A DNA stretch of 64,000 nt from positions 62,001 to 126,000 of the forward strand of contig NZ_JALKIG010000001.1 of assembly GCF_023051165.1 (NCBI RefSeq). Reading direction: 5' to 3'. Source of the stretch: Veillonella sp. KGMB01456 (lineage in GTDB: Bacteria; Bacillota; Negativicutes; Veillonellales; Veillonellaceae). The notes below the pieces were generated by a model, which worked only from the letters and a program-made list of their open reading frames with translations, was not told where the DNA came from and did not search any database. A program made the position numbers and the translations under genes. Shown here piece after piece: positions 14,580 through 25,936 of this stretch (positions are counted from its first letter, which is position 1; each line of letters opens with the position of its first letter).

Positions 14580-15209
14580 ATGAAAATTGCAGTTGTAAGT
14601 TCGAATGGTAAAGTAGGTCGTTTGGTAGTAGCAGAAGCATTTCGTCGTGGTTTTGACGTAACCGGTTTTGCCCGTAGCGAAAATAAATCGGACGCTACTA
14701 AATTTGTTCAAAAAGATATTATGGATATCACGAAAGAAGATTTGGCCGGTTTTGATGCAGTAGTTGATGCATTTGGTACATTTGCGCCGGATACCTTGGA
14801 TCTTCACACTAAATCGTTGATGCATTTGTCCGATGCCGTAGCCAATACGGATACTCGTTTATTGGTTGTAGGTGGTGCCGGCAGCTTGTTCGTAGATAAA
14901 GAACATACGACACAGCTTCTCGATACACCGGAATTTCCAAAAGAATTCTATGCGCTCGCTAAAGCTCAGGCTGATGAATTGGCAGAACTTCGCAAACGCA
15001 ATGATGTAAAATGGACCTTCGTAAGCCCTGCTGCGATTTTTGATCCGGAAGGTGCTCGTACCGGTGAATACATTTTGGCCGGTGAAGAATTCACTGTTAA
15101 CGACCGTGGTGAAAGTGTGGTAAGTTATGCCGACTACGCCCTTGCTATGGTGGATAAAATCGAAAAAGGTAACCACATTCAGCAGCGTATCAGCGTGGTG
15201 GGTAAATAA
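14580..15209 (+). CDS. ywnB: YwnB-like NAD(P)-binding atypical SDR
   Basis: A 209-aa Rossmann-fold protein of the atypical short-chain dehydrogenase/NmrA-like group. The N-terminal nucleotide-binding motif is VVSSNGKVGRLVVAEA, a relative of GxxGxxG, followed by VDAFGTF and VVGGAGSLF. YALAKAQADE carries a YxxxK-like element. A GGTTCA-type leader and GAGAAAG precede the ATG. In Bacillus subtilis ywnB neighbours the Rrf2 gene ywnA, exactly as here, and shared operators suggest control by that repressor. The reaction is not established; a role in redox or thiol stress is inference. Confidence 0.8.
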   Translation: MKIAVVSSNGKVGRLVVAEAFRRGFDVTGFARSENKSDATKFVQKDIMDITKEDLAGFDAVVDAFGTFAPDTLDLHTKSLMHLSDAVANTDTRLLVVGGAGSLFVDKEHTTQLLDTPEFPKEFYALAKAQADELAELRKRNDVKWTFVSPAAIFDPEGARTGEYILAGEEFTVNDRGESVVSYADYALAMVDKIEKGNHIQQRISVVGK

Positions 15210-15260
15210 TTATACATCTTTATTTTGGGCGTCGTTATAGTAAAAACGGTGGATTCGTGA

Positions 15261-15291
15261 TATAATCTGTAATGTAATAGTGTATATTACA
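15261..15291 (+). promoter_or_regulatory. ywnA -10 and autoregulatory operator
   Basis: TATAAT (15261-15266) is followed by a perfect inverted repeat TGTAATA-GTGTA-TATTACA (15273-15291) over the presumed transcription start. It has the same half-sites as the operator on the ywnB promoter. Confidence 0.7.
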
Positions 15292-15311
15292 ATTTATTAG
15301 GAGGCATGCCC

Positions 15312-15785
15312 ATGCAAATATCCAGTCGTTTTACTATAGCGGTTCATATTTTTACTTGTATCGCTATTGCAGAAAAGAAATATAAAGTAACCAGCAAGTT
15401 TTTGGCCGGTAGTATCAACGTAAATCCGGTTATTATTCGTAACATCGTGCTCATGTTGAAGGCTCATGGTCTGATTGATTCTCGTCAGGGCACGTCCGGC
15501 ATCAAGATTGCCAAATGTCCGTCGGACATCACCTTGTTAGATATTTTCAACGCCGTGGAATCCCTCGATAACGGTCAGCTGTTCAGTTTTCATGAAAACC
15601 CGGCTCAAGATTGTCCGGTCGGCAGTCACATTCATTGTGTGCTGGATGGCCGTTTGGAGCAGATTCAGAGTGCCCTTGAAAAAGAATTGCAAAGTATTAC
15701 GTTAGCTTCGATTATTGAAGATGCAGAAACGCAAATTGCTAAAGATGAAGCAGCGGCCAATGCCGATTGTTCGGAGCTGGTATAA
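15312..15785 (+). CDS. ywnA: Rrf2-family transcriptional repressor, YwnA-like
   Basis: A 157-aa winged-helix regulator. It begins MQISSRFTIAVHI, as Rrf2 proteins do, then an HTH around 25-60 (SKFLAGSINVNPVIIRNIV) and a wing (SRQGTSGIKIAKCP). Cys69, Cys101 and Cys109 (CPVGSHIHC) could sense redox or nitrosative stress, but the classic three-Cys cluster spacing is not obvious. ATG 15312 is chosen, 7 nt after AGGAGG; ATG 15306 is only 1 nt from it. A 19-bp inverted repeat precedes the gene and recurs at ywnB, so it likely represses both. Confidence 0.87.
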   Translation: MQISSRFTIAVHIFTCIAIAEKKYKVTSKFLAGSINVNPVIIRNIVLMLKAHGLIDSRQGTSGIKIAKCPSDITLLDIFNAVESLDNGQLFSFHENPAQDCPVGSHIHCVLDGRLEQIQSALEKELQSITLASIIEDAETQIAKDEAAANADCSELV

Positions 15786-15815
15786 AAACTATGCTCGGAG
15801 CTGGTATAAAAACTA
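15771..15815. repeat. 24-bp tandem duplication over the ywnA 3' end
   Basis: A 21-nt string starting TCGGAGCTGG occurs at 15771-15791 and again at 15795-15815. The first copy includes the ywnA stop codon. It looks like a recent slip duplication that left the protein intact. Confidence 0.85.
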
Positions 15816-15829
15816 AATAATTGAGCAGA

Positions 15830-15904
15830 GAACCCCGTGTCTCGGTTATGTAAGAGCTTATCCTTCAGGAAAGTTACGTATCATGACCGAGCGGGGGTCT
15901 TTTA
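15830..15904 (+). terminator. Terminator after ywnA
   Basis: A two-part stem: ACCCC/GGGGGT, then CTCGGTTATG (15841-15850) with CATGACCGAG (15882-15891), a long loop and CTTTTAT at the end. Confidence 0.6.
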
Positions 15905-15914
15905 TATTGACTAT

Positions 15915-15968
15915 GATATTTTTCAAAAGTTTATTGACTGAATAATCGTAAATTTTTTGAAAAATATC
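15915..15968. promoter_or_regulatory. Perfect 14-bp inverted repeat upstream of the RclA-like gene
   Basis: GATATTTTTCAAAA (15915-15928) is mirrored at 15955-15968, 26 bp apart. A third related half-site, ATTTTTCAAAAATATTGAT, is at 16041-16059 in the leader. A TATAAT lies at 16003-16008. The set looks like a regulator-binding region rather than a terminator, as there is no T-run in context. Confidence 0.45.
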
Positions 15969-16083
15969 GATGTTATATTGCGGCCTTTTGGAGGCAGTGT
16001 GATATAATTAAATGTATGAGACAGATATTCAAGATTATTTATTTTTCAAAAATATTGATAGCGAAATAATAAGGAGGTAAAAG

Positions 16084-17448
16084 ATGAAATCGTATGACGT
16101 AATTGTGATTGGTTTCGGTAAAGCCGGCAAAACTTTGGCCGGTAAATTAGCAAAATCCGGCAAAAAAGTAGCGTTAATTGAAAAAGACGCTTTTATGTAT
16201 GGCGGTACTTGTATTAATGTAGGTTGTATTCCTTCAAAACGTTTGATTACAGATGCGGCGTTGTCCCCTGATGCATCTTTTGAAGAAAAAGCGGCTTATT
16301 TTAAAAAATCTATTGAAGGTAAACGTCAATTGACCGCTGCGTTAAATCAGGCCAACTATAATAAAGTAGCTCAAGCAGGTGCTGAAATTATTGATGGCGT
16401 AGCATCCTTTGTTGATGCTAAGACTATCAACGTTAAAACTGCTGATGGCGATTTGACGTTGACCGCTGAACAGTTCTTGATTAACACCGGTTCCACGCCG
16501 GTAATTCCTAATATTGAAGGCGTACGTGATCCAGCGACCGGTGAACTTCAGGCAGGCAATAAACTTTACACATCCCAGACGCTCATGGATTTGGATGAAC
16601 TTCCTGAACGCCTTACTATCGTAGGCGGCGGCTATATCGGTTTGGAATTCGCGTCCATGTTTGCCGAATTCGGCAGCAAAGTTACGATTATTCAAGATTC
16701 GGATGTATTTTTACCGCGTGAAGACGAAGACATTGTCGAAGTAATTCGCGAAGTTATCAGCGCTAAAGGCGTTGAAGTGATTACCGGTGCGGCTATTAGC
16801 GCTATTAAAGACGGCGTAGTAACTTACACAGCTGACGGCGCTACTAAAGAATTAGCCGGCGATGCTGTTTTGATTGCTACCGGTCGTCGTCCAAACACCG
16901 ACGAGCTTCAAGCTGAAAAAGCGGGTATCAAAATGACGAACCGTGGCGCTGTTGAAACAGATGAACACTTACGCACCAGCGTGCCTAACATCTGGGCTGC
17001 CGGCGACGTTGTTGGTAAATTGCAGTTCACCTACATTTCCTTAGATGATTACCGCATCGTTTTGGATGACATGATGGGCAACCGTCAACGTACCACTGAA
17101 AACCGTGGTGCTTTCGCATACTCCGTATTCATTGAACCTCCGTTCTCTCGCGTTGGTTTGAATGAAAAAGAAGCTAAAGCTCAAGGCCTCGAATATCGTG
17201 TTCTTAAAATGCCGGCTAACGCCATTCCAAAAGCTAAAGTACTTCGCGAAACTGAAGGCGTGTTAAAAGCTTTGGTAGCTCCAAACGGCAAAATCTTGGG
17301 TGCACAACTCTTCTGTGCCGAATCCCATGAAATGATTAATATGATTAAACTCGCTATGGATCATGACTTGGGCTATGAAGTACTCCGCGACTTCATCTAT
17401 AACCACCCAACCATGTCTGAAAGCTTGAACGATTTGTTTGCGTTATAA
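16084..17448 (+). CDS. RclA-like pyridine nucleotide-disulfide oxidoreductase
   Basis: FAD-dependent dimeric oxidoreductase of 454 aa. An N-terminal FAD-binding motif (VIVIGFGKAGKTLA) precedes the redox-active CINVGC pair (Cys43/Cys48). The NAD(P)-binding motif is VGGGYIGLE, the second FAD signature is VPNIWAAGDVVG, and a C-terminal dimerisation domain ends in HPTMSESLNDLF. It lacks the extra cysteines of MerA and resembles RclA/YkgC more than lipoamide dehydrogenase; no 2-oxoacid dehydrogenase genes are near. AAGGAGG lies before the ATG. The likely role is response to reactive chlorine or metal stress, by family analogy. Confidence 0.85.
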   Translation: MKSYDVIVIGFGKAGKTLAGKLAKSGKKVALIEKDAFMYGGTCINVGCIPSKRLITDAALSPDASFEEKAAYFKKSIEGKRQLTAALNQANYNKVAQAGAEIIDGVASFVDAKTINVKTADGDLTLTAEQFLINTGSTPVIPNIEGVRDPATGELQAGNKLYTSQTLMDLDELPERLTIVGGGYIGLEFASMFAEFGSKVTIIQDSDVFLPREDEDIVEVIREVISAKGVEVITGAAISAIKDGVVTYTADGATKELAGDAVLIATGRRPNTDELQAEKAGIKMTNRGAVETDEHLRTSVPNIWAAGDVVGKLQFTYISLDDYRIVLDDMMGNRQRTTENRGAFAYSVFIEPPFSRVGLNEKEAKAQGLEYRVLKMPANAIPKAKVLRETEGVLKALVAPNGKILGAQLFCAESHEMINMIKLAMDHDLGYEVLRDFIYNHPTMSESLNDLFAL

Positions 17449-19172: not shown

Positions 19173-20111
19173 TCAGAAATCATAAGATAATATTCCTGTT
19201 GGTTGCCTAATAGATAACTCCTTGAACTTTTTGGGAGTTATCTTTTTTTGTTCCTTAAAACATTTAGTATAGTAACTTTGGTCACTGAAACCTACTGAGG
19301 TTGCAATTTCGGCGATAGATAAATTGGTATCTCTGATTAAGTCGATACTTTTGTTTATCCGATAGAGTATTAAGTAATTGAACAACGATTCTCCGGTGAC
19401 TTTTTTAAAAAAGCGACTACATTCGCTTTTGCTGATGGAAACAGATTTTGCAATTTCCTCCAGCGTTATTTTTTCTTGATAGTGATTTTGTATAAAGGAA
19501 AGAATTTGTTTTAACCGATCATTTTCATAGTAGCTTTGCGGGACTTCATCGCTGTCTTGTGAATTAGATTTTAGCAATAAATATGTTTCTTTAAAAATTT
19601 CCAATATATCAATTTCTACATCAACTTCAAATAGTTCCGGTGTTTCTTTTATTAATTGCTGAATGTTAATTATTTTATTTAGGATATTTTTTGAGTTGGA
19701 CTCATTACCGGATAATTTTAAGGCTGCTGGAATAGGTGACTTAAGAATCGGGTTTATATATCGAGAATAAATTCGTCCGTGATTATCGTGGGCGATAAAA
19801 GATGGTGGAATATCTAAACAGATGTAAGACGCGGTTGAAACACTTTTATTTTGTTTAATGAGATGTATCTGCTGATAGTTAATAAAAAAACCGTCTCCTT
19901 TTTTTATTGAATATGTCTGTCGGGGAAGTTTTATATCAATGATACCTTCTGTTACATAACAATATTGAAATGCTTGATGCCAATGCCAATTAATGAACTC
20001 ATAGGTATGGGGCGAAAATGTAGTTGTAAAAATTGAAATATTAAAACCGGGGAAAATAGGTTTTATTAATTCTTGTTTTGAATGATCAAAGGTAATTTTT
20101 TTCTCTTTCAT
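19173..20111 (-). CDS. AraC-family regulator with cupin domain
   Basis: A 312-aa transcription factor. The N-terminal half has cupin features (HWHQAFQYCYVTEG, KKGDGFFINYQQIH), suited to binding a small ligand. The C-terminal 100 residues are a double-HTH AraC domain with LEEIAKSVSISKSECSRFFKKVTGESLFNYL and the signature IAEIATSVGFSDQSYYTKCFKEQKKITPKKF. GAGGT lies 6 nt before the ATG. It is divergent from the diaminopropionate lyase gene across 110 bp, so it most likely controls that operon in response to the substrate. The ligand is inference. Confidence 0.9.
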   Translation of the reverse strand: MKEKKITFDHSKQELIKPIFPGFNISIFTTTFSPHTYEFINWHWHQAFQYCYVTEGIIDIKLPRQTYSIKKGDGFFINYQQIHLIKQNKSVSTASYICLDIPPSFIAHDNHGRIYSRYINPILKSPIPAALKLSGNESNSKNILNKIINIQQLIKETPELFEVDVEIDILEIFKETYLLLKSNSQDSDEVPQSYYENDRLKQILSFIQNHYQEKITLEEIAKSVSISKSECSRFFKKVTGESLFNYLILYRINKSIDLIRDTNLSIAEIATSVGFSDQSYYTKCFKEQKKITPKKFKELSIRQPTGILSYDF

Positions 20112-20221
20112 TCTTACGACCTCAATATTTTTATAAAATTAAGATTTTTAGTGATATAACCATAAATTAATAAATAGTATAGTAAGTATAACAATAAATC
20201 GTTGAAAAGGGAAGTGATGAG

Positions 20222-21445
20222 ATGCGTATTTTTAGCAATGATGTTATGGAAGTGCTGATTAATAAGGGTTTAAGAGAATTTAGAAGTGATGGTTGTTTTG
20301 ACTATAATGAAGCTTTAGCGGCTAAAAAATCACATGAGTCATTAGAGGCTTATCAAAAAACACCTTTGGTTCACCTTGATGGATTAGCAAAAAAATTACA
20401 AATTTCCAATATCATGGTTAAAGATGAATCGAAACGATTCAGTCTTAATGCATTTAAAGGTTTAGGTGGCAGTTATGCTATGTTTCGTATTATCTGTGAA
20501 GTTCTAGGTTTAGATTATCAAACAGCACAACTTAAAGATTTATTACAAGATAAATTTAAAGCGACCTTACAAGCGATTGAGTTTGTTACGGCAACTGATG
20601 GGAATCATGGTAAAGGTGTTTCATGGGCAGCCGGAATTTTTGGTTGTAAAGCACATGTCTATATGCCAGCCGGTTCTCAGGAAGTTCGGGCCGAGGCCAT
20701 TAGAAATGCGGGCCCTGCCGATGTTGAGATTACAAAGTTTAATTATGATGATACTGTTAGATTTGTAAAGAGCCAAAGTGAAGCAAACGGTTGGTATCTT
20801 ATTCAAGATACTGCTTGGGACGGTTATGAAAAAATCCCAACTTGGATTATACAAGGTTATTTAACTATGATTCTTGAAACGGTTGAAGAGTTGGGAACTA
20901 AAAAAAATAAACCAACCCATGTTTTTTTACAAGCCGGGGTCGGGGCTATGGCTGGCGGTGTAGTAGGCTTTTTAAGTGATTATTATAAAACAGATAAACC
21001 GATAATTGTAATCGTCGAACCGCAAGTAGCTGACTGTATTTATAGATCTAAGCTGATTGATGATGGCGCGATGCATTCTATTGAAGGCTCGCCTTTTACG
21101 ATTATGGCCGGCTTGAACTGCGGTACACCGTGCAAAGTAACCTGGGGTGAACTAAGTAATCTGCCTGACTTTTACGTATCTTGTGCTGATAGTGTAGCAG
21201 CTTGTGGAATGAGAACATACCATAAACCGCTTTCCGGTGATGCTCAAATTATTTCAGGCGAATCAGGAGCAGTAACAATGGGGGTTGTAAAAACTATTTT
21301 AGCGGATGAACGTTACAAGTCATTGAAGGAAAGTATGCAATTAAATTCGGATTCTAAAATTTTACTCATAAATACTGAAGGTGATACGGATCCAGAGAAT
21401 TATGAGGCTATTATTTCCGGAAAATTATTCAAAGAAAACTGTTAG
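20222..21445 (+). CDS. dpaL: 2,3-diaminopropionate ammonia-lyase
   Basis: PLP enzyme of fold type II, 407 aa, converting 2,3-diaminopropionate to pyruvate and two ammonia. The PLP lysine is Lys79 in LNAFKGLGGSYA, and the family-specific TDGNHGKGVSWAA and AGVGAMAGG phosphate loop are present. C-terminal segments GDAQIISGESGAV and NTEGDTDPE are typical of DpaL/YgeX. GGAAGTGA precedes the ATG. It is the first gene of a plus-strand unit with a carrier, an M20 hydrolase and a permease, under a divergent AraC regulator. Confidence 0.92.
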   Translation: MRIFSNDVMEVLINKGLREFRSDGCFDYNEALAAKKSHESLEAYQKTPLVHLDGLAKKLQISNIMVKDESKRFSLNAFKGLGGSYAMFRIICEVLGLDYQTAQLKDLLQDKFKATLQAIEFVTATDGNHGKGVSWAAGIFGCKAHVYMPAGSQEVRAEAIRNAGPADVEITKFNYDDTVRFVKSQSEANGWYLIQDTAWDGYEKIPTWIIQGYLTMILETVEELGTKKNKPTHVFLQAGVGAMAGGVVGFLSDYYKTDKPIIVIVEPQVADCIYRSKLIDDGAMHSIEGSPFTIMAGLNCGTPCKVTWGELSNLPDFYVSCADSVAACGMRTYHKPLSGDAQIISGESGAVTMGVVKTILADERYKSLKESMQLNSDSKILLINTEGDTDPENYEAIISGKLFKENC

Positions 21446-21486
21446 ATCTTCTTATAATAGGTTGGTTAATAGATAGAGGGATAGGT

Positions 21487-22878
21487 ATGAATACGATGAA
21501 ACGGGAGTTGACTTTTTCGTATGCCGCATTTGTAATGGGCGTATGTTTTGCTTTCATTATGATTCCGGCTGCTGTGTTTGGAGTTAAAATTCATGTTATG
21601 TTTGTACTATCGTGGCTAATTGCGATTCCACTTTGTATGAGATTGGGCTATACCTATAAAGAGTTACAAAGTGGGATGTTGGACTTTATTCCTAAATGCA
21701 TTATGCCGGTTCTTTTAATATTAATTATTGGTGGATTAATTGGTGCTTGGTGTGCCAGTGGTACCATTGCTTATATTACGGCTCTAGGGTTAAAAATGAT
21801 AAATCCTCAATATTTTTTAGCAACAGCGTTTGCGATTACCTTTATTTGTGCTTGTTTTACGGGTACAAGTTTCGGTACCTGTGGGACAATTGGGGTGGCC
21901 CTTATGGGGGTTGCGGCCGGCATGGGAATTGATACCTATTGGGCCGCCAGTGCTATTCTTTGTGCTGCCGTTATTGGTGATGGATTGTCACCTTTATCTG
22001 ATACTCCTAATGTTATTGCCGGTGCAACGAATGTAGATGTTTTTAAAAGTGTAATTTTTCAGTTGCCTATGACAATTCCGGTTATTCTTATATCCTTCGC
22101 ATTTTATGCGTTTATGGGGGTGTTTGGGGATGTACCGATGGCTGATACATCGACTATAAGCAATTTAGTTATTGCCATCGAAGATAGCTACAATTTAGGT
22201 GTATGGTGTCTTATACCGGTGATTTTGGTGTTTGGCTTGTTGATTTTTGAATTTCCGGCGATACCGGCCATTTTAATTGGTATTCTAAGTGCTATAGGTG
22301 TGGCTGTAGTATTTCAAGGGCAAAGTATCGTAAATACTGTTAGTGCGGTATGGGGCGGCTATCACTTAGTTTCGGATAATAAATTAATTGAAACTTTATT
22401 CAGTCGAGGCGGCATTTCGAGTATGACGGGAACAGCAGTTTTAATTATCTTCTCATTTGGTTTATTTGGAATACTAAAGCTATGTAATGTACTGGATGTA
22501 TTGGTAGTTCCACTAACTAAGAAAATTAAATGTCGTTTAAGTGGAGTTGTATGCGTAATTGTATTGGGATTTTTGGCAAATTTCTCATCTTCGGCCAGTT
22601 TCTCTGAAGTTTTTACAGGCAATATTATGACAACTGTTTATGATAAAGCAGGTTTGAATCGCTTGGATTTAACACGGGCTGCCACTGTTGGATGTTTAGT
22701 GTTCTCTATGTTCGTACCGTTTACAGTAATGTGTGCTACCGTTACCGGCTTTTTAGGTGTAGATCCGGTTGCGATGTTTAAATATTATGTCAGTATGCCA
22801 CTTTATTTAATCGTTATATTGTTGATTACAGGGTTTAATTTGGATAAATCTTTATTGGCTAAGATGAGTAAAAGTTAG
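21487..22878 (+). CDS. NhaC-family sodium/proton-coupled carrier
   Basis: A 463-aa membrane protein with about eleven helices, of the NhaC antiporter family (ion transporter superfamily). TGTSFGTCGTIGVALMGVAAG and AVIGDGLSPLSDTPNVIAGATN are diagnostic of the family, whose members exchange Na+ for H+ or amino acids and organic acids. It lies 41 nt after dpaL and 64 nt before the M20 gene. This operon position makes uptake of diaminopropionate or a conjugate, or export of a product, more likely than housekeeping sodium homeostasis. The substrate is inference. Confidence 0.85.
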   Translation: MNTMKRELTFSYAAFVMGVCFAFIMIPAAVFGVKIHVMFVLSWLIAIPLCMRLGYTYKELQSGMLDFIPKCIMPVLLILIIGGLIGAWCASGTIAYITALGLKMINPQYFLATAFAITFICACFTGTSFGTCGTIGVALMGVAAGMGIDTYWAASAILCAAVIGDGLSPLSDTPNVIAGATNVDVFKSVIFQLPMTIPVILISFAFYAFMGVFGDVPMADTSTISNLVIAIEDSYNLGVWCLIPVILVFGLLIFEFPAIPAILIGILSAIGVAVVFQGQSIVNTVSAVWGGYHLVSDNKLIETLFSRGGISSMTGTAVLIIFSFGLFGILKLCNVLDVLVVPLTKKIKCRLSGVVCVIVLGFLANFSSSASFSEVFTGNIMTTVYDKAGLNRLDLTRAATVGCLVFSMFVPFTVMCATVTGFLGVDPVAMFKYYVSMPLYLIVILLITGFNLDKSLLAKMSKS

Positions 22879-22942
22879 GTATAGCAACAGGTATTAATTT
22901 CGATTGGGTATTTGACAGTCTGTTCTTGGGAGGTAATTTATC

Positions 22943-24118
22943 ATGGAAAATCAATTAGCGAAAATCTTTACATTTATTGATGAACATAAGGAAGACATGG
23001 TACAGGATTTAAGAACGTTTGCTGATTTAGAGGGGCACTTTGAAGAAAAAGATAATGTATTAAAAGCCAGAACGTGGTTGCAACAGCAGTTGGAAAAAGA
23101 AGGTTTTGCGTGTAGATTCAGAGAGGTTGCCGATGACCGTTGTGGTATTATGATTGCCGAGTTAGGGATGGATCGACCGGGGAAACCGATTATATTTTCC
23201 GGCCATTGTGATACAGTACATTATACCGGTAGCTTTGGCGGTGAAAATCCGACTGTCATTAAAGACGGGAAAATTTTTGGACCCGGTGTGCTTGATATGA
23301 AAGGCGGTTTAATTATTGCATTATATGTTGCAAAAGCGTTAAACTTTATACAGTATAAGGAGCACCCGATTAAACTTATTGTTGTAGGTGAAGAAGAATC
23401 CGATCATGTCGGTAATGACGGCAATAAAATACTAACGGCTGAATCAAAAGGGGCACTCTGTTGTTTTAACATGGAAACCGGTCAAATGAATAATAGTTTA
23501 TGTACTCAGAAGAAAAGTCAATTTACCTATTATTTGAGTGTTGACGGGGTAGGTGGTCATGCCGGTAATGATTTTTTGAAAGGTCGTAATGCAATTAATG
23601 AAGCCGTGTATAAGATTCAGAAAATTATTGAACTCACTGACTTATCCGTAGGAACTACGGTTACAACGGCAGTTATAAAGGGTGGTGGGCACACCAGTGG
23701 CATTGCAGATCATTGTGAAGTCGTGTTCGATGTGCGAGTGACAAATGAAAATGAAGCAAAACGTATTATGGACTCTATGTATGAAATTACTGATGAAACG
23801 TTTATTGAAGGAACAAAGTCAAAGTTAACGTATTACCGCGCTAAATTATTGCCACTTCAAGAAACCAAAGAAGCGATTCGTTTACTAGACTTTGTTAATA
23901 CAGTTGCCAAAGATAACGGTTTTGATGAATTTGGGAAAGTGCATTTAGGCGGAGCATCCGATGCCGGAAATATGGCGGCAGCCGGTATTCCGGTTTTAGA
24001 TAACTGCGGTATCATCGGTCAATATGCACATAATAAAAAAGAATATGGCATAATTAATTCCTTATACTCTAGAGCTAAAATATTTGCAGGCACTGTTTTG
24101 AAAATTAAGGAGTTGTAG
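22943..24118 (+). CDS. M20-family metallo-amidohydrolase
   Basis: A 391-aa zinc hydrolase of the ArgE/DapE/CPG2 family, related to YgeY. Metal and catalytic residues are in order: SGHCDTVH (His88, Asp90), PGVLDMKGG (Asp118), GEEE (Glu150/151) and a later GGASDAGN with a His-rich QYAHNKKE. A dimerisation domain lies around 180-290. GGGAGGT is 10 nt before the ATG. In Escherichia coli ygeY also neighbours ygeX (dpaL), supporting a joint pathway. It may release diaminopropionate from an N-acyl or peptide conjugate. Confidence 0.88.
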   Translation: MENQLAKIFTFIDEHKEDMVQDLRTFADLEGHFEEKDNVLKARTWLQQQLEKEGFACRFREVADDRCGIMIAELGMDRPGKPIIFSGHCDTVHYTGSFGGENPTVIKDGKIFGPGVLDMKGGLIIALYVAKALNFIQYKEHPIKLIVVGEEESDHVGNDGNKILTAESKGALCCFNMETGQMNNSLCTQKKSQFTYYLSVDGVGGHAGNDFLKGRNAINEAVYKIQKIIELTDLSVGTTVTTAVIKGGGHTSGIADHCEVVFDVRVTNENEAKRIMDSMYEITDETFIEGTKSKLTYYRAKLLPLQETKEAIRLLDFVNTVAKDNGFDEFGKVHLGGASDAGNMAAAGIPVLDNCGIIGQYAHNKKEYGIINSLYSRAKIFAGTVLKIKEL

Positions 24119-24120
24119 TT

Positions 24121-25749
24121 GTGGAACTTTCAACGGATATACGTTTTTGGTTACCGGCGTTAGTACCCATTGTATTTCTTTTAGTAGCGATTATTAAACT
24201 GCGGTGGCGGATTGCGAAGGCGTCGGTAGTCAGTATGAGCTTGGCATTGCTGATTGCCGGGTTGCTTTTCGGATCATCACCGTTAGCTTTATTATTTGAA
24301 ACCGGTAAGGGCGTTTGGAACGCTGCCACCATATTGCTCGTGATTTGGCCGGCTATTTATTTATATGAAATAACTTGTGAAGTTAAGGCGGTTGAGGCGA
24401 TTCGTACAGGTATTCAACGGATTACAAAACACGAACTATTGCAGATTTTAATATTAGGATGGGTGTTCCCCAGTTTCTTACAGGGGATAACCGGCTTTGG
24501 TGTTGCTGTGGCGGTGGGAGCGCCGCTGTTATTGAGTATTGGCGTAAGGCCGCTGTACAGTATTGTCATTGTACTGCTGGGCCATTCTTGGGGCGCTACG
24601 TTTGGGACCTTGGCGCTTGCTTGGGAGGCCTTGGTTCAGCAATCCTCGATGAATGGCAACGAACAAGTGTATGCCGCCTTTTTGGCGGCGGCTATGATTT
24701 GGATTTTTAACTTTTTAGCGGTGCTATATATTTGTTGGTTATATGGACGAATGAGGGCAATACAATCTGTTTGGCCGGTAGTAGTTGGCTTGTCGCTTGT
24801 CATGGGTGGTGGCGAATTATGGCTTGCCACCATTAATCCAACAATTTCCTGCTTTTTACCAACCGCTATCGGTATGGGCTTAGTGTTTGTGGTGAGTAAA
24901 ATTCCAAAGTATAAGCAACGATGGTATAATACGGACAGTCCAATTATGATGCGGCTTAATCAAACTGAAAGAGCACCGTTGAATGACACGCCGGCAAAGG
25001 TCACTTCCGGACGTACCATGTCGTTTAATCAAGCTTTTTTGCCATACTATCTGTTGATTGGCATTACCGTATTATGCTTGTTAGTGCCACCGATTTACAA
25101 TGCTCTCAGTGTCTGGAAAGTGGCGCTCACGTTTCCTGAGACGGCGACTGCTTTTGGCTATATGACTAAGGCGGAGCCTTATTTCAGCCCTGTGCAACCC
25201 TTAACGTATGCAGGTACGTTCTTACTTTTGTCAGCGCTAAGTAGTCTTTGGTACTATGAAAAAAAGAAATTTTTATCTAAATCAGCGGTAACGGCTATTA
25301 ATAAACGTACTTTTGAAAAATGTAAGGCGCCTACCATAGCGATTACCTGTTTGATTGTCATGGCTAAATATATGGGCAGTAGCGGGCAAATTTATGTGCT
25401 TTCAACGGGGATTGTTGAATTGCTCGGTATTTACTATGTTATCGTATCGCCGTTACTGGGCATGATCGGGTCCTTTTTGACGGGCAGTAATATGTCGTCC
25501 AATATATTATTCGGCAATTTACAAATGCTGGCGGCTAAGGCGCTGGGCATAAATCCGGCTATTACGGCAGCGTTGCAAACTACCGGCGGCGTGCTTGGCA
25601 ATTCCTTTTCGCCGGGCTGTGTGATTATGGGTATTGTCACAACCGGTTTTAACGAAGGTGAAGATAAAATATTGAAACTTATGATGCCGTTTACTATTGC
25701 GCTGGCTGTTATATTTGGTTTGTTAGGCTTTATGCAGTTATTGTTGTAA
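24121..25749 (+). CDS. LctP/GlcA-family 2-hydroxyacid permease
   Basis: A 542-aa permease of the L-lactate permease family with about 13 membrane helices. The signature FLQGITGFGVAVAVGAPLL is at about 118-136. GLTP-like regions TGSNMSSNILFGNLQ and TGGVLGNSFSPGCVIMGI occur in the C-terminal half. GTG start, AAGGAG 8 nt upstream; the start is 2 nt after the M20 stop, so translation is coupled. It is the last gene of the diaminopropionate unit. Lactate or pyruvate exchange is the family expectation; in this setting it may move the carboxylate released by the amidohydrolase. Confidence 0.88.
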   Translation: MELSTDIRFWLPALVPIVFLLVAIIKLRWRIAKASVVSMSLALLIAGLLFGSSPLALLFETGKGVWNAATILLVIWPAIYLYEITCEVKAVEAIRTGIQRITKHELLQILILGWVFPSFLQGITGFGVAVAVGAPLLLSIGVRPLYSIVIVLLGHSWGATFGTLALAWEALVQQSSMNGNEQVYAAFLAAAMIWIFNFLAVLYICWLYGRMRAIQSVWPVVVGLSLVMGGGELWLATINPTISCFLPTAIGMGLVFVVSKIPKYKQRWYNTDSPIMMRLNQTERAPLNDTPAKVTSGRTMSFNQAFLPYYLLIGITVLCLLVPPIYNALSVWKVALTFPETATAFGYMTKAEPYFSPVQPLTYAGTFLLLSALSSLWYYEKKKFLSKSAVTAINKRTFEKCKAPTIAITCLIVMAKYMGSSGQIYVLSTGIVELLGIYYVIVSPLLGMIGSFLTGSNMSSNILFGNLQMLAAKALGINPAITAALQTTGGVLGNSFSPGCVIMGIVTTGFNEGEDKILKLMMPFTIALAVIFGLLGFMQLLL

Positions 25750-25792: not shown

Positions 25793-25812
25793 AGCTTTGG
25801 ATTCAGATAACA

Positions 25813-25852
25813 CAAACCCCCTCTCCGTGCGGATGCACAGAGAGGGGGTTTG
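25813..25852. terminator. Bidirectional terminator between permease and catalase
   Basis: A perfect 13-bp stem (CAAACCCCCTCTC with 25840-25852) between convergent genes. The loop is 14 nt and the T-tracts are short. Confidence 0.7.
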
Positions 25853-25936
25853 CTTATTATGCAGCTGATTTTCCTAGAGAGAGTAGTTATTTTTAATGAT
25901 TAATTGCACACATTGGTCACATGAAACGCGAATATA

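Follow-up and report, generated by a model that had tools for sequence, protein, structure and literature searches.

A putative AraC-regulated module coupling an M20 hydrolase to diaminopropionate ammonia-lyase in Veillonella and distant Bacillota

Introduction

Which compound would be degraded by a 2,3-diaminopropionate (DAP) ammonia-lyase, DpaL, whose gene lies together with genes for an M20 metallo-amidohydrolase and two carriers behind a divergent araC gene? This question is raised by positions 19173 to 25749 of a stretch of 64,000 nucleotides from Veillonella sp. KGMB01456 (contig NZ_JALKIG010000001.1, positions 62,001 to 126,000), which we refer to as the window. In the reductive uric-acid pathway, the M20 enzyme YgeY hydrolyses ureido-DAP and YgeX makes pyruvate (PMC12507026, PMC12990295); because YgeY makes DAP for YgeX, the window M20 would, by analogy, release DAP from a conjugate. 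We suggest that the genes probably constitute a horizontally acquired, AraC-regulated module in which the M20 enzyme would free DAP from an imported conjugate and DpaL would degrade DAP to pyruvate and ammonia. Sequence comparisons establish the gene identities, the operon anatomy, the conserved linkage, the single M20 clade, the repeated recruitment of DpaL and the gain and loss in relatives on which this suggestion builds.

Results

The locus and its closing terminator-type hairpin are organized as follows:

19173-20111, minus strand: araC, AraC-family regulator (Pfam AraC_binding and HTH_18)
20112-20221, no strand: divergent control region between araC and dpaL, its araC-proximal ~40 bp conserved across three loci
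20222-21445, plus strand: dpaL, predicted pyridoxal phosphate-dependent DpaL 2,3-diaminopropionate ammonia-lyase (PRK08206, invariant catalytic residues)
21487-22878, plus strand: NhaC/ArcD-family carrier, probable importer or exchanger (Pfam Na_H_antiporter, 119 bits)
22943-24118, plus strand: M20 metallo-amidohydrolase with a carboxypeptidase-G2-like fold, DpaL-linked subclade (Pfam Peptidase_M20 and M20_dimer)
24121-25749, plus strand: LctP-family (Lactate_perm) permease, probable organic-acid carrier (Pfam, 234 bits)
25813-25852, plus strand: terminator-type hairpin at the end of the unit (-33.6 kcal/mol, z -6.8)

The intergenic gaps from araC to lctP are 110, 41, 64 and 2 bp, and the coordinates of the open reading frames (ORFs) agree exactly with the tight dpaL-nhaC-M20-lctP arrangement that an earlier note, made from the sequence alone, had described. 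The unit is closed by a strong terminator consisting of a 13-pair hairpin and a T-rich stretch (free energy and z computed for 25800-25870), downstream of which lies a convergent catalase gene.

The same note had proposed a search for this gene set elsewhere. Relatives were found by scanning GTDB contigs with a DpaL alignment followed by neighbourhood analysis, and the set recurs in distant Bacillota in conserved order, including an orthologous AraC; a GTDB contig scan with the M20 alone as query found nothing. The related loci are:

G684 (uncultured Enterocloster): araC; nhaC-M20-lctP-oadA-like-dpaL
G685 (Clostridiales metagenome-assembled genome), locus 1: araC; dpaL-nhaC-M20-lctP-oadA-like-RidA, read across two contigs linked by a 32/33-base overlap inside the M20 gene
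G685, second locus: dpaL-nhaC-M20, the M20 interrupted by one stop
G686: RidA-dpaL-nhaC-M20
G1084: dpaL-nhaC-M20, flanked by two membrane transporters
G939: nhaC-M20, with dpaL ~2 kb off

In G684 and G685, identity to the window proteins is 49% for AraC, 69-70% for NhaC, 67-69% for M20 and 57-58% for LctP; for DpaL it is 60% in G685 and 50% in G684. The window-type M20 is rare, being found in 2 of 398 genomes of the phylum, the window's own included (E below 1e-90), and in 2 of 397 genomes of the family of G684 (E below 1e-95). Transporter, M20 and AraC genes are common, and four unrelated genes could in principle merely lie together; this explanation is refuted by finding, outside the class of the window, the same order with orthologs of AraC, NhaC, M20 and LctP, is further contradicted by the probable gain of the unit as a block (see below), and retains virtually no credibility.

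The linkage follows the M20 lineage. NhaC and DpaL lie within a few kb of all seven of the closest M20 homologs, and neither lies beside any of ~20 more distant ones; the examined Negativicutes M20 homologs at 35-39% identity have no DpaL. In a tree that took in six usable linked sequences, the linked M20s form one clade with support 100/100, and they share the signature residues G31, K36, R66, F98, D154, Q193, T195, G204, T241, E259, G342 and N364, the last of which adjoins the metal ligand H363. The DpaL proteins of the modules are drawn from several DpaL clades, with at least five changes forced by the starred branches of the DpaL tree, so that a single M20-NhaC lineage took up DpaLs of different origin, and did so more than once. 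A single clade of module DpaLs was rejected (the constrained tree is 470 log units worse; approximately unbiased test, p ~3e-31). Of the indirect evidence that DpaL acts on the product of the M20 enzyme, this repeated recruitment is the strongest, and it suggests that DAP-lyase activity has been selected for next to the linked M20. More generally, an M20 enzyme of some kind lies within 4.5 kb of 32 of 76 DpaL loci, uric-acid clusters included, versus 1 of 295 distant ORFs.

The M20 protein itself scores above the cut-offs for Pfam Peptidase_M20 and M20_dimer. The designation "YgeY-like" in the earlier note could not be upheld, given that the protein falls far below the curated YgeY cut-offs (TIGR03526, 46.4 bits against 321.5; PRK13004, 62.0 bits against 321) and that the true YgeY of this genome, at 664.5 bits, is encoded on another contig, C11. 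The best curated models are PRK07338 and PRK06133 at ~146 bits, with both cut-offs missed; for PRK06133 (glutamate carboxypeptidase) the score of 146.7 is below the cut-off of 349, and by these scores the protein is nearest to the carboxypeptidase G2 group while remaining below that group's cut-off. A structure predicted with AlphaFold2 (mean predicted local distance difference test score 93.8) has carboxypeptidase G2 as its top match (Z 43), followed by DapE and related deacylases (Z ~36); this model suggests a fold and no substrate. Amide hydrolysis is likely because all metal-site residues (H88, D118, E151, E152, E178 and H363) are retained.

These data bear on a different account of the locus, in which the NhaC/ArcD-type carrier would import DAP in its free form, or a different small amino acid of the diamino or beta-substituted kind, for cleavage by DpaL. 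The M20 enzyme would then be a general dipeptidase or acylase of that regulon, with no specific role in making DAP. Such an account would accommodate the match of the carrier to ArcD, albeit below cut-off at 192 bits, as well as the widespread occurrence of PRK06133-kind M20 enzymes without DpaL. We nevertheless regard it as unlikely, given that the linked M20s form a separate clade with signature residues of their own and that the M20 always travels with NhaC, whereas DpaL is the exchanged part.

The window DpaL passes PRK08206 (507.4 bits, cut-off 276) and TIGR01747 (468.6, cut-off 274) and narrowly misses TIGR03528 (505.7 bits, cut-off 532.25). Its residues K79, D126, H129, Y175, D196, C272 and C300 are invariant across a set of nine DpaLs and align with the E. 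coli DpaL active-site residues K77, D120, H123, Y168 and D189 and with its cysteine pair C265/C291. On these grounds the protein is DpaL, predicted to turn D-/L-DAP into pyruvate and ammonia.

Two more DpaL genes, on contigs C11 and C18, bring the total in this genome to three, each with a different M20 partner. The C11 copy is part of a full reductive uric-acid cluster (C11:1-16000) with a YheO-like regulator, YgeX (597 bits), YgeY, YgeW and carbamate kinase (the latter two assigned by position and sequence), SsnA (604 bits), a YgfK-like protein of 562 aa whose match is limited to the N-terminal part of the YgfK model, a selenium-dependent xanthine dehydrogenase (1308 bits) and two purine permeases. 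With this cluster present, uric-acid degradation does not require the DpaL of the window. The third DpaL, on C18 (L008:9140-12736), has a divergent AraC gene and lies beside an AllC-like M20 gene interrupted by in-frame stops, either because it is a pseudogene or through an error in sequencing; this locus also encodes a 428-aa protein that resembles CyuA/YhaM-type desulfidases and has no NCBIfam hit.

The module could instead serve as an alternative final stage in the breakdown of uric acid or of other ureido compounds, with the M20 enzyme decarbamoylating albizziin or 3-amino-2-ureidopropionate as YgeY does. YgeY is a precedent for an M20 enzyme that makes DAP for YgeX (PMC12507026, PMC12990295), and albizziin, moreover, occurs as an amino acid in plants. 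However, the genome already possesses the C11 uric-acid cluster, and the module has no uric-acid genes at its flanks, either in the window or in those relatives that were examined. We consider this alternative rather improbable. Specifically, SsnA, YgfK/UacX, XdhD and YgeW/UacY were found neither beside the window dpaL among the ORFs listed for 14-32 kb of the window nor among the neighbouring hits at related module loci.

Regulation of the module by AraC is suggested by AraC orthologs (49% identical) that lie divergent to the module at two other loci (L150 and L122). In the 40 bp upstream of araC, counted from the Shine-Dalgarno sequence, 22 of 40 columns are identical in these two loci and the window, a match that beats all 200 dinucleotide shuffles (shuffle mean 15.4). 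A scan for promoters gave no more hits than shuffled sequences did. Separately, the pattern GATATA-N19-TATA(A/G)T was noticed by eye afterwards upstream of the first operon gene in the three loci, and we make no claim for it.

Both carriers are recognizable by family. The NhaC-type carrier passes Pfam PF03553 (Na_H_antiporter) and falls below the cut-offs of the NhaC equivalog TIGR00931 (302.8 versus 370) and of the arginine/ornithine antiporter ArcD (192 versus 650 bits); the NhaC copies adjoining M20 in other modules are 46-70% identical to it. The LctP-type permease passes Pfam Lactate_perm and scores 224.4 against a cut-off of 341 for TIGR00795 (lctP), and genes 57-58% identical to it lie directly behind M20 at L150 and L208.

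Gain and loss of the unit can be followed within the genus. In the window, a Gate-domain gene precedes araC and the catalase gene follows lctP; in three other genomes of the genus (G022, G023 and G027) the Gate-domain gene abuts the catalase gene with nothing between them. The nearest genome, G025 (~93% identical; L236, G025:C8:36500-46500), lacks araC, dpaL, nhaC and M20 and keeps lctP, the start of which overlaps the Gate-domain stop (TAATGG) and which carries one frameshift that may be an assembly error. Given that G684 and G685 also have lctP behind M20, it is simplest to suppose that the whole block arrived, lctP included, and four genes were then probably lost in G025. Alternatively, and less simply, the four genes would have been inserted ahead of a resident lctP.

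Near the module, positions 14580-17448 of the window encode an NAD(P)-binding oxidoreductase, a regulator of the Rrf2 type and a flavoprotein resembling RclA/MerA, which scores 542 bits against a cut-off of 740; together they are possibly a reactive-chlorine or hypothiocyanite defence unit.

The survey of DpaL loci also uncovered other neighbourhoods. L117:101-5464 (G027) and L121:4949-11087 (G070) combine a divergent AraC gene with DpaL, a HipO/DoeB2-like M20 (split into two ORFs at L117) and a carrier of the SdaC or AGCS type; one of the two also has RidA. In Acidaminococcaceae (f18/g65; L104, L105, L106, L107, L108, L110, L112 and L115), DpaL repeatedly lies beside a zinc-ribbon protein (FCENCGSPL) with no M20, and mostly near a P-type ATPase of ~900 aa. 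A small conserved protein (MGIISGLMGNASQTNIEDVKKDYAKLLG...) precedes DpaL in another Negativicutes family (f14/g60; L083, L111, L113 and L116). L120 (G158:C120) has two DpaL genes separated by ~6 kb: the neighbours of one are of the YgeY and YgeW type, and those of the other are a further M20, a D-aminoacylase-like protein (UacY-type) and an SSS carrier.

Discussion

Recurrence, the single M20 clade, repeated DpaL recruitment, the shared araC leader and the gain as a block together give good support to one transferable catabolic unit in which the M20 enzyme would feed DpaL. This part of the earlier note stands; its oxalyl conjugate, the plant origin of the conjugate and the exchange of the freed acid by LctP are more speculative. 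We infer the order of the M20 and DpaL reactions, the directions of transport and all substrates: (i) an N-acyl, N-carbamoyl or peptidyl conjugate of DAP would be imported, most likely by the NhaC/ArcD-type carrier, (ii) the M20 enzyme would cleave the amide to give free DAP, (iii) DpaL would convert DAP to ammonia and 2-aminoacrylate, which would yield pyruvate and a second ammonia, and (iv) the LctP-type permease would handle pyruvate or the freed organic acid. In relatives, RidA (G685 and G686) would clear 2-aminoacrylate, and the OadA-like carboxyltransferase (G684 and G685) would act at the pyruvate/oxaloacetate node. Both additions fit 2-aminoacrylate and pyruvate chemistry and, together with the two carriers, fit a pathway ending in pyruvate.

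Several points weigh against this pathway. The substrates of NhaC-type and LctP-type carriers are not readable from sequence, and the enzymatic function of the M20 clade is a prediction. Carboxypeptidase G2, the closest relative of the M20 enzyme with a solved structure, has N-acyl glutamates as its substrates and shares only ~20% identity with it. The adjacency of M20 and NhaC could have a different cause, for example the use of dipeptides. Finally, only seven linked loci were found, some of them in draft genomes.

Candidates for the acyl group on DAP are oxalyl, carbamoyl, acetyl and peptidyl, among which sequence does not choose. According to a review, the rumen bacteria Megasphaera elsdenii and Clostridium bifermentans degrade beta-N-oxalyl-2,3-diaminopropionate (beta-ODAP) by an unreported route (PMC7590051), so that such conjugates are used in a rumen habitat. 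The idea of an oxalyl conjugate draws its outside plausibility solely from this review, which has no tie to the window locus. A flavodoxin comparison, at 46% identity, does not support M. elsdenii as the host of the module. We think it doubtful that gut and rumen anaerobes use the module as a dedicated pathway for a dietary or natural-product DAP conjugate, such as acetyl-DAP, plant albizziin or the neurotoxin beta-ODAP, and that the M20 subfamily is specific for that conjugate; were this so, the module would offer the first candidate genes for how anaerobes break down conjugates of that class. Literature on DpaL with M20 beyond uric acid, on DpaL in Salmonella and on lysinoalanine yielded nothing usable.

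If the proposed module is correct, it would represent a second route, beside uric-acid breakdown, by which anaerobes generate and use DAP, and would define an M20 subfamily acting on a DAP conjugate. DpaL lies time and again beside M20 enzymes from unrelated subfamilies, which suggests that diaminopropionates in masked form make up a wider class of nutrients than has been recognised. A gut dpaL gene should not always be taken as a uric-acid marker.

Comparison with known systems

Rumen degradation of beta-ODAP (PMC7590051) resembles the proposed pathway in that anaerobic bacteria use a DAP conjugate, for which the window module would be suited, and differs in that its genes and products are unreported and have no link to this module. 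Carboxypeptidase G2 provides the nearest solved fold and identical metal-site residues; it differs by the low identity noted above, by no known linkage to a DAP lyase, and in the usual GGTxSNAIP motif, in which Asn is replaced by Gly in the window M20 (GGGHTSGIADH, common to L150). The other DpaL cassettes found here (divergent AraC with DpaL-HipO/DoeB2-like M20-SdaC-RidA; DpaL-AGCS carrier-HipO-like M20; AllC-like M20-DpaL) similarly combine DpaL with an M20-family hydrolase, often with a carrier, a divergent AraC gene or RidA, but use different M20 subfamilies and carriers, with no NhaC and no LctP. The proposed parallel in function is the YgeY-YgeX end of the uric-acid pathway in E. coli and C. 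difficile (PMC12507026), in which neighbouring genes encode an M20 enzyme that frees DAP and a DpaL-family lyase that forms pyruvate and ammonia. In contrast to that system, the window unit has no XdhD, YgfK, SsnA, HyuA or YgeW nearby, is paired with AraC control and with NhaC and LctP carriers, and resides in a genome that encodes its true YgeX and YgeY elsewhere.

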